Source: Clostridia bacterium (lineage in GTDB: Bacteria > Bacillota > Clostridia > UBA1381 > UBA9506). Taken from it: a stretch of 39,908 bases of DNA. Within the stretch, counting starts at the first letter, position 1. Every line of letters starts with the position of its first letter. A program made the position numbers and the translations under genes. Positions 3,625 to 9,704 of the stretch are shown in pieces. The notes below the pieces were generated by a model that was not told the DNA's origin, searched no databases, and saw only the letters and a program-made list of their open reading frames with translations. Where the stretch lies: contig JAFQWH010000105.1 in the NCBI GenBank assembly GCA_017407515.1, positions 1 through 39,908 of the forward strand, read 5' to 3'.

Positions 3625-4545
3625 ATGCCTATTAAAATTCCCAATGAGCTTCCGGCAACAAAAACATTGACAGAAGAAAATATTTTTGTAATTACGGAAA
3701 CCCGGGCTCTGACCCAGGACATCAGACCCCTAAAGATTGCGATTTTAAACCTGATGCCCACGAAAATTGAGACAGAAACCCAACTTGCACGGCTTTTGGG
3801 CAACACCCCCCTGCAAGTTGAATTGACATTGTTGAACACCGGCAGCTATAAGTCTAAAAACATAAACGAAGAGCATATGCTGGCGTTTTATAAAACCTTT
3901 GACGAGGTTAAGGACGCAACCTTTGACGGCATGGTGATTACCGGTGCACCGGTCGAGAAAATGGAATTTGAAGATGTGATTTACTGGGACGAACTTTGCC
4001 GTATTTTTGAATGGACGAAAACCAACGTTACCAGCACATTTCATATTTGCTGGGGTGCTCAGGCGGGGCTTTATTATCATTACGGAATTCCCAAATACCC
4101 CTTAGAAGAGAAACTGTTCGGCGTTTTTGACCATACGGTTGAGCATAAATCTTCTATTTTGTTCCGTGGGTTTGACGAGGTATTCCGTGCACCCCATTCA
4201 CGGCATACCACTATCTTACGTGAAGACGTTGAAAAGGTGCCGGAGCTTAAAATTCTGGCAAGCTCCAAAGAGGCGGGGCTGTATGTTATCAGTACAGACC
4301 AGGGCAAGCAGATTTTCGTGACAGGGCATTCAGAGTACGACAGAGATACTTTAAAAAAGGAATATCTGCGTGATATTAACGCAGGGCTTCCCATAGAGGT
4401 TCCCTATCAGTATTTCCCTGACGATGACCCCACCAAGGAACCGTTGGTTACCTGGAGAAGCCACGCAAACCTTTTATATTCAAACTGGCTGAATTACTTC
4501 GTATACCAGGTAACGCCTTATGATTTGACACAGATTAAGAAATAA
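3625..4545 (+). CDS. metA: Homoserine O-acyltransferase MetA, predicted acetyl-CoA specific
   Basis: First committed step of methionine synthesis: acylation of L-homoserine. 306 residues with the full MetA pattern: catalytic Cys142 in [10 protein letters not shown] and His235/Glu237 in TGHSEYD. Residue 111 is Glu in [10 protein letters not shown]. Published work on Bacillus cereus MetA shows Glu111 favours acetyl-CoA, whereas the E. coli enzyme has Gly111 and uses succinyl-CoA. O-acetylhomoserine is therefore the likely product despite the family name. ATG follows AAGGAGTG. Only 27 bases separate it from the tyrS terminator, and I see no SAM riboswitch, T-box or obvious dedicated promoter. 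Confidence 0.95.
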
Positions 4546-8324: not shown

Positions 8325-8606
8325 ATGTTTTTACATTTGGGTTCTGATGTAGTTGTGAACATGGCAGACGTAATTGCTATTTTGGATTTAGACGTTACCA
8401 GTACTTCAAAAATCACCCGTGAGTTTTTGGCGATTGCCGAAGATGAGGGGTTTGTTGTGAACGTATCAGAGGATTTGCCGAAATCTTTTGTGATTACGGA
8501 AATTGATAAAAAAAGCCGCGTGTTTGTGTCACCGATTTCCACGGCAACGCTACTGAAGCGGGCAAAAAGTAACGGCGGAATTTCTGAAATTGATTACGTA
8601 AAATAA
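8325..8606 (+). CDS. remB: DUF370 regulator RemB (YaaB)
   Basis: 93 residues of the DUF370 family (opening FLHLGSDVVVNMADVIAILD, ending near FVSPISTATLLKRAK). The family includes RemA and RemB of Bacillus, which control biofilm matrix genes, and the yaaB position after recF matches RemB. ATG follows AGAGGGAAG. The usual next gene, gyrB, is absent; a strong terminator follows instead. Confidence 0.9.
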   Translation: MFLHLGSDVVVNMADVIAILDLDVTSTSKITREFLAIAEDEGFVVNVSEDLPKSFVITEIDKKSRVFVSPISTATLLKRAKSNGGISEIDYVK

Positions 8607-8613
8607 GAAAATT

Positions 8614-8657
8614 AAAAGGCTTTAGCAAAATGATTTCATTTTGCTAAAGCCTTTTTT
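8614..8657. terminator. Intrinsic terminator after remB
   Basis: AAAAGGCTTTAGCAAAATGA pairs perfectly with its complement across a TTT loop (about 20 bp), followed by six T. The A-rich left flank could let it also stop leftward transcription from the dehydrogenase operon. Confidence 0.9.
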
Positions 8658-8930
8658 AGAGATACATGCAAAATAGTGCGGTCTGTGCATTTTGTTACAG
8701 CCTTTTTAGGGATGGACGCAAAATAGTGCAGATTGGATAAACTGAATCCCGCCGGCGTACATAGGTACGCCTAGAGGTGAAGTTTATTCAAAGCACAAAG
8801 CATTTTTTATTTAGAAATTTGTTGTACAACAAATTTCTACCATAATTTTTCTTTCTTATTTTGTTGCTACTTCAAAAACCCGCAACGCTTGGGTGCTTTG
8901 TGCGGTCTGTGCATTTTGCTACAGCTCCTT
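8637..8930. repeat. Gene-free repeat-rich element with direct repeats, hairpins and a 28-bp palindrome
   Basis: This is the only long stretch without a gene between remB and the dehydrogenase. It holds a tandem pair of about 51-bp units (starts 8637 and 8688) sharing CATTTTG, AGCC, a T run and GCAAAATAGTGC. A 26-bp sequence at 8676-8701 recurs with one mismatch at 8900-8925. A two-part hairpin spans 8733-8791 with a GGCGTAC/GTACGCC tip. A 10-bp inverted repeat (8793-8802 with 8894-8903) surrounds a perfect palindrome at 8812-8839 and a GTTGC/GCAAC stem. No credible ORF is present. It resembles a non-autonomous dispersed element or structured 3' untranslated region. Confidence 0.7.
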
Positions 8931-9704
8931 TTATCTTCTGACGGGATACAACTGTATGGTATTGCCACCGTCAACAACCAGCTCAGCACCGGTGGTGTTT
9001 CTGGCGTGTGCAGCGAAATACCAAACGGCATCGGCAACATCTTCGCCTACGGCAACATCGCCGATGGGTGTAAACCGAGAGGGAACATTTGCGTAAAATT
9101 CCGGATTCTTTTCCCATCTGTCGGTTTTAATCATGCCCGGCAGAACGGCGTTTACACGAATGTTATACTGACCTAAGTCTAAAGCCATGGCACGCATCAT
9201 ACCCAGCTGACCGCTTTTTGATGCAGAATATGCAATACGGTTGGGAATAGCACGGTAGGCGGTGTTTGAGTTTACAAAAACAATACTGCCGCCGCCCTTT
9301 TCTTTCATGCGTTTTGCTGCCAGTTCGCAAAGGTAATAATTCCAAACCATGTTTGTGTTAATAACACGCATAAAGTCCTTCAGGGGATTTTCAAAGATTT
9401 CAATGCCCAGGCCCTGGTCAGCTGCGTTCAGAACCAGGGAATCTACAAAAATACCTTCTGCATCGAGAAATTCAAATAGTTTTTCGGCCGCTTTTTCATC
9501 AACGCAGGTTTCGTTTATTAAGGAATCAATGGCGTAGCCGATGATTTTTACCTCGGGGAAATTTTTTCTGTAATTAGTTTCGGCCTCGGAAACTTTTTCT
9601 GAGTTTCTGCCGGTGAAAACAACGTTATAGCCCTCTTTTGCAAATTTTTCTACAATGGCAACGCCTGTGTTGATGCAGGCTCCCGTAACTAAAACTGTGT
9701 GCAT
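8931..9704 (-). CDS. Short-chain dehydrogenase/reductase (SDR family)
   Basis: NAD(P)-dependent oxidoreductase of the classical SDR type, 257 residues. The cofactor loop is VTGACINTGVA, a variant of TGxxxGxG. LNAADQG replaces the usual NNAG, and the catalytic Ser lies in FVNSNTAYRA with YSASK supplying Tyr and Lys. The C-terminus VVDGGNTIQLYPVRR is typical. As the last gene of the hydrolase-dehydratase-dehydrogenase operon it probably oxidises or reduces a sugar or sugar-acid intermediate; the substrate is not visible. Start ATG follows AGAGGT. Confidence 0.88.
   Translation of the reverse strand: MHTVLVTGACINTGVAIVEKFAKEGYNVVFTGRNSEKVSEAETNYRKNFPEVKIIGYAIDSLINETCVDEKAAEKLFEFLDAEGIFVDSLVLNAADQGLGIEIFENPLKDFMRVINTNMVWNYYLCELAAKRMKEKGGGSIVFVNSNTAYRAIPNRIAYSASKSGQLGMMRAMALDLGQYNIRVNAVLPGMIKTDRWEKNPEFYANVPSRFTPIGDVAVGEDVADAVWYFAAHARNTTGAELVVDGGNTIQLYPVRR

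Follow-up and report, generated by a model that had tools for sequence, protein, structure and literature searches.

A gene-less, putatively mobile repeat with a conserved fold in Clostridia

Layout of the repeat-rich gap

Within the 39,908-nucleotide stretch of Clostridia DNA analysed here (the window), the RemA-like remB gene of the dnaA-dnaN-recF cluster and a leftward short-chain dehydrogenase gene are separated by a gap that contains no gene, as the first-pass annotation had also noted, and that is packed with repeats (Table 1). All of the repeats named in that annotation were present when the sequence was re-examined: the tandem units as direct repeats of 22-27 nt (8653/8703 and 8637/8688, spacing 50-51), the 26-nt direct repeats T1 and T2 (224 apart, with one mismatch), the perfect 28-nt palindrome, the nested hairpin (P2/P3, with its inner hairpin at 8754-8771), the 10-bp inverted repeat around the palindrome, which corresponds to helix P4, and another small stem at 8862-8867/8882-8887. 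We place the start of the element near 8614 rather than at 8637, because a 20-bp perfect hairpin, termed H, is part of the same arrangement. The element ends at 8930, adjoining the stop codon of the dehydrogenase gene.

Table 1. Features of the element and its neighbours (positions are those of the window).
Feature	Position	Strand	Description
RemA-like (remB) gene	8325-8606	+	left neighbour, dnaA-dnaN-recF cluster
Hairpin H	8614-8655	+	20-bp perfect inverted repeat, terminator-like; TTTTTT on + side, TTTTAATTTT on - side
Core-deleted remnant unit	8656-8707 (approximate)	+	5'-arm remnant ATGCAAAATAGTGC joined directly to 3'-end sequence T1 GGTCTGTGCATTTTGTTACAGCC
Direct repeat T1	8676-8701	+	upstream copy of T
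Helix P1, 5' arm	8708-8733	+	body start, complementary to T
Arm P2/P3	8734-8790	+	P2 8734-8750/8774-8790; P3 8754-8760/8765-8771
Helix P4	8793-8903	+	arms 8793-8805/8891-8903; encloses P5 and an AT-rich spacer; arms covary freely among copies
P5	8812-8839	+	perfect 28-nt palindrome hairpin, inside P4
Direct repeat T2	8900-8925	+	downstream copy of T
Helix P1, 3' arm	8905-8930	+	contains T2, then TTTT; body end, abuts stop codon of leftward gene
Short-chain dehydrogenase gene	8931-9704	-	right neighbour, convergent with the element

The stretch 8614-8930 resolves into three pieces: hairpin H, then a remnant unit that lacks the core, and finally a complete body of approximately 220 bp (8708-8930). 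H is probably a bidirectional terminator between the remB-like gene and the element. Hairpins of this kind travel with the body in genomes that have undergone bursts, a constant H being found ahead of the copies in SUG1177 and G114, and a core-deleted copy like the remnant stands alone at another locus (L018). The 5' arm of the body is the complement of T. P2 carries a conserved ACUGA..GGUGAAGU motif (tandem G.A), and the sequence-conserved P2/P3 core (8726-8803) was used to build the covariance model R1 for the searches described below. No promoter-like site is present on either strand of the window copy.

A branched fold maintained by compensatory change

The predicted fold of 8700-8935 has an energy of -75.8 kcal/mol, compared to -51.0 +/- 4.5 kcal/mol for shuffled sequences (z -5.5), and with H included (8608-8935) the z-score against shuffles is -8.2. 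Across the family the fold consists of the closing stem P1, the P2/P3 arm with the conserved core, and P4 enclosing P5; some copies have an extra, variable hairpin in the P2 loop. An unconstrained alignment of 34 divergent copies yielded 41 consensus pairs, 29 of which show changes on both sides with pairing kept, and at P4 positions three or four different Watson-Crick pairs are in use. For the core, 98.6% of the cells are paired, both sides have changed in 12 of 19 pairs and none of 500 shuffles matched the observed covariation, in an alignment that was fitted to the covariance model and hence leans toward it. In nearly all copies the two ends can pair with each other; their sequences differ from locus to locus and covary. 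P1 arms pair far better with their cognate arm than with arms from other copies (-22.4 versus -14.3 kcal/mol; 0 of 10,000 permutations). The P4 arms in this pairing test were picked by complementarity and are biased, making the unconstrained 34-copy alignment the cleaner test for this helix.

The fold belongs to one strand. Of the 34 copies, 32 have the lower minimum free energy on the + strand (Wilcoxon p about 1e-9). There are 93 G.U pairs against 14 A.C pairs, or 25 against 11 when the three commonest G.U columns are removed. Selection acts on the + strand to keep a single branched fold, and what the family conserves is this shape, the letters changing freely. The structured nature proposed by the first-pass annotation is therefore borne out more strongly than expected, by compensatory changes, P1 pairing and strand bias alike.

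Dispersal, placement and signs of mobility

A dispersed element had been among the initial suggestions, along with a search of the genome itself and its relatives, and this search returned many intergenic copies, excluding a single-copy sequence. The genome from which the window derives (1.42 Mb, 80% complete) contains many partial and near-full copies by DNA search, and 10 body copies by covariance model, plus solo hairpins. The latter, of GGCTGTAGCAAAATG...CATTTTGCTACAGCC type and without a body (C5:1898-1931, C38:5988-6021, C47:17405-17438 and C62:7724-7756), are dispersed in the manner of solo LTRs. With a completeness filter applied, 46 of 61 genomes of the order have the family (44 of 61 in the first covariance-model scan), and many carriers have ten to forty copies, with a maximum of 41; that first scan found no copies in the same-genus species G003 and G009. 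In a class-wide sample, 42 of 293 Clostridia genomes are carriers, belonging to at least 15 families. A phylum-wide sample of 299 genomes, which doubles as a specificity control for the model, gave the genome itself and one weak match among the 298 others. The named public carriers among the matches listed are uncultured Clostridia, many of them from ruminant gut. In G114 and G109, many contigs start or stop within near-identical copies, and copy numbers from draft genomes are underestimates because contigs break in this way. Copies without the P4 3' arm are truncated, interrupted or located at a contig end. The model also scores a second hairpin element of weak relatedness (L105, reverse complement, 4456-4532; L072:5163-5236). 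It has the form AAATTCGTCGGCGTAC....GTACGGTAGAGTTT, its ends are GTTGAAAAACGA / TCGAGTTTTTC, and it is possibly a sister family.

No genes are present in the approximately 94 copies examined, nor did any of these copies have an internal ORF that would indicate a larger, gene-bearing version. Viral contigs, phages and plasmids gave no match to the family, so that carriage by such vehicles was rejected. Likewise, Rfam 15 has no family reaching gathering score for the window or 26 carrier loci, and the sub-threshold matches are weak and lie mostly over ordinary terminator hairpins. A literature search found no description of the family; an earlier automatic detection may be listed in the supplement to PMC8040213, a survey of microbiome RNAs. 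Absent from Rfam and from the literature found, the family appears to be previously uncatalogued.

The position of the copies is strongly biased. Of 72 copies, 42 have a strong hairpin in the 70 nt upstream and 2 have one downstream, against 7 of 225 random background windows; a T run follows P1 in 43 of the 72. By simple ORF calls, 67 of 81 cases have an antisense gene on the 3' side, its stop codon lying near the end of the body, and the 5'-side gene is on the + strand in 51 cases and on the - strand in 33. The host genes are unrelated, with 55 singletons among 63. Given this, and given that the better-folding strand is antisense to the leftward gene, the initial proposal that the leftward operon has a long processed 3' end here finds no support as a main explanation. 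In about half of the copies a direct T copy stands immediately 5' of the body and resembles the T2 of that copy significantly more than the T2 of others; in roughly half, T1 is missing or unrecognisable.

Comparison of related loci reveals gain and loss. The gap between a HAD gene and rpmB is empty in G006, holds one unit in G000 and two tandem units in G008, and the insertion sits between the two native terminators, which share no T. Between KH and smpB, G000 has a copy and G008, G006 and G002 have only decayed fragments. Near-identical copies including H occur in SUG1177 and G114, suggesting bursts, tandem arrays have units of 215-242 bp, and several contigs terminate inside copies. Since two species share the filled HAD-rpmB site, many copies are old and vertically inherited. 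Nine recent copies have no target-site duplication of 2-10 bp at a common offset. From these sequence patterns (the empty site, remnants, bursts, arrays and unrelated neighbours), the copies appear to behave as mobile, and the T-body-T layout suggests that arrays, core-deleted copies and solo hairpins are products of recombination between T repeats. We consider it probable that the window holds one copy of a non-autonomous, gene-less, putatively mobile repeat.

Known systems, candidate movers and rival explanations

Several known repeats resemble the element in part. Like the bacterial MITE-type repeats ERIC, Correia/NEMIS and RUP (reviewed in PMC2229807), it is in the 100-250 bp range, intergenic, gene-less and dispersed in many copies, with a long stem formed from both ends; a stable transcript fold is a further likeness, the fold here being predicted from DNA. 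It differs in its branched fold, extensive compensatory change, locus-varying arms, T direct repeats within the unit and hairpin-directed, one-way placement, and in that we found neither a target-site duplication nor a parent IS. With REPs and REPINs moved by RAYT (TnpA-REP), the element has in common that it is dispersed, palindromic and strand-specific in its folding and has no gene of its own, and the trans-acting HUH enzyme of these systems is a possible model for it. However, REPs are 20-40 bp long with a GTAG/CGTC tag (PMC3733652), whereas the unit here is 220-260 bp, has neither GTAG nor CGTC, and its copies do not track the presence of Y1 genes. Of the "MITE/REP-like" label given at first, the lifestyle stands; assignment to the REPs fails on size, tag and the missing RAYT link, and assignment to the MITEs would be premature, as no target-site duplication was seen in nine recent copies and no parent element in the genome itself. 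Likened by description, BOX and SPRITE of Streptococcus pneumoniae (PMC10969869) are also modular, structured repeats paired with a terminator-like hairpin element and forming tandem modules, but in different organisms from the hosts of the element. The genomes of the Bacillus cereus group contain bcr1, a dispersed repeat of approximately 155 bp that is reported to have a conserved RNA fold. It too is similar by description only, and its organisms and sequence are others.

The movers that we considered were not supported. RAYT/Y1 genes were not detected in copy-rich G004, G006, G109 and G306 and were detected in copy-free G003 and G009; where present, the RAYT genes of these genomes flank a different, GTAG-tagged repeat. 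A parent IS with the same ends is not apparent, as no IS-sized end pair was found in the element's own genome (80% complete). The idea that P1 is a split target hairpin was discarded as well, since the P1 sequence is partly family-conserved and the copy at L010 lies behind a native terminator that has no sequence in common with P1. Separately, single-copy RAYT-like Y1 transposase genes (KYVIMPNHIH; L241-L250, e.g., L245:1918-2463 on the - strand and L242:2167-2685) contain an in-frame stretch, VGQGLAPAENQ (VGNDLCVVPPQN), which in L245 matches the adjoining GTAG-tagged repeat GTAGGGAACGACCTACGTGTCGTTCC; judged from sequence, a REP appears to have inserted into its own RAYT-like transposase gene. 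At another locus of the window's genome (L011:420-480 and 690-754, contig C19), a REPIN-like repeat, GTAGGGGAGGGCCTCTGTGCCCTCCC...CCCCTACAA, both borders and breaks up a copy of the element whose P1 3' arm is gone.

A degenerate or minimal retroelement, similar to a group IIC intron, is disfavoured and in our view very improbable. Group IIC introns recognise and settle 3' of intrinsic terminator hairpins (PMC3898094), and the element has this position, the same orientation and an RNA-like fold of one strand. Yet it is far shorter, without a group II match in Rfam, and many carriers have no detected reverse transcriptase: a PF00078 search found none in 11 element-rich genomes (G000, G001, G004, G007, G008, G077, G109, G114, G165, G177 and G306), including some that are nearly or fully complete (G077, 100%; G109, 98%; G114, 96%). 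We also take the ends and core of the element to be unlike group II domains. Somewhat less improbable, but still doubtful, is a passive repeat, in which recombination and template switching, with no dedicated mover, would be enough for terminator-like hairpins and the sequences next to them to spread and to convert one another. Inside a genome, H and the P1 3' arm do have common sequence, solo hairpins and core-deleted copies exist, and crossing over between T repeats accounts for the tandem units. Such a process, however, leaves unexplained the sequence-conserved core across 15 or more families, the internal P4 and P3 covariation, and the insertion between two native terminators without a common T.

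Of these alternatives, the one we take most seriously, while still thinking it unlikely, is an RNA element serving the host. Lying between convergent genes, it would terminate transcription in both directions, stabilise 3' UTRs or be an antisense RNA, and would be copied for its usefulness. The fold strictly kept on one strand, the frequent T run after P1, the location between stop codons, the filled site common to G000 and G008 and the presence of the element 3' of smpB in two genera would all fit such a role. They have to be set against unrelated host genes, sites that are empty or decayed in same-genus species, entire species without copies (G003 and G009) and the lack of a promoter-like site in the window copy; moreover, the + strand is expected to be poorly transcribed, because a terminator hairpin is normally located just upstream.

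Taken as a whole, the element looks like a new structure-dependent mobile repeat whose lifestyle is MITE-like, without being a demonstrated member of the MITEs, REPs or group II introns. For such a repeat, we infer that a trans-acting enzyme would recognise the folded + strand, either as single-stranded DNA at a fork or as RNA, and would join the body behind a hairpin whose 3' arm resembles T, with T-body-T as the product. T1 and T2 could then recombine, which would generate tandem arrays, or remove the body and leave a solo hairpin, and copies would survive in harmless gaps between convergent genes. A point against this explanation is that a mover acting at the DNA level alone leaves the internal P4 covariation unexplained. 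More tentatively still, the family might represent a new mobile class, spread over many Clostridia families, in which the folded + strand (ssDNA or RNA) of a gene-less body is the substrate, the 5' arm complementary to T joins behind a T-carrying terminator hairpin, and movement in trans depends on an enzyme other than a reverse transcriptase or any known REP transposase.

In gut Clostridia this repeat family is both abundant and widespread. It combines signs of mobility with a fold held by dozens of compensatory changes, and it can be tested directly by means of the covariance model, the empty sites and the solo hairpins. If confirmed, it would mean that small selfish repeats can rely on an exact nucleic-acid structure, would account for gaps that are hard to assemble, given the several contigs that stop within copies, and would point to a trans-acting mover.
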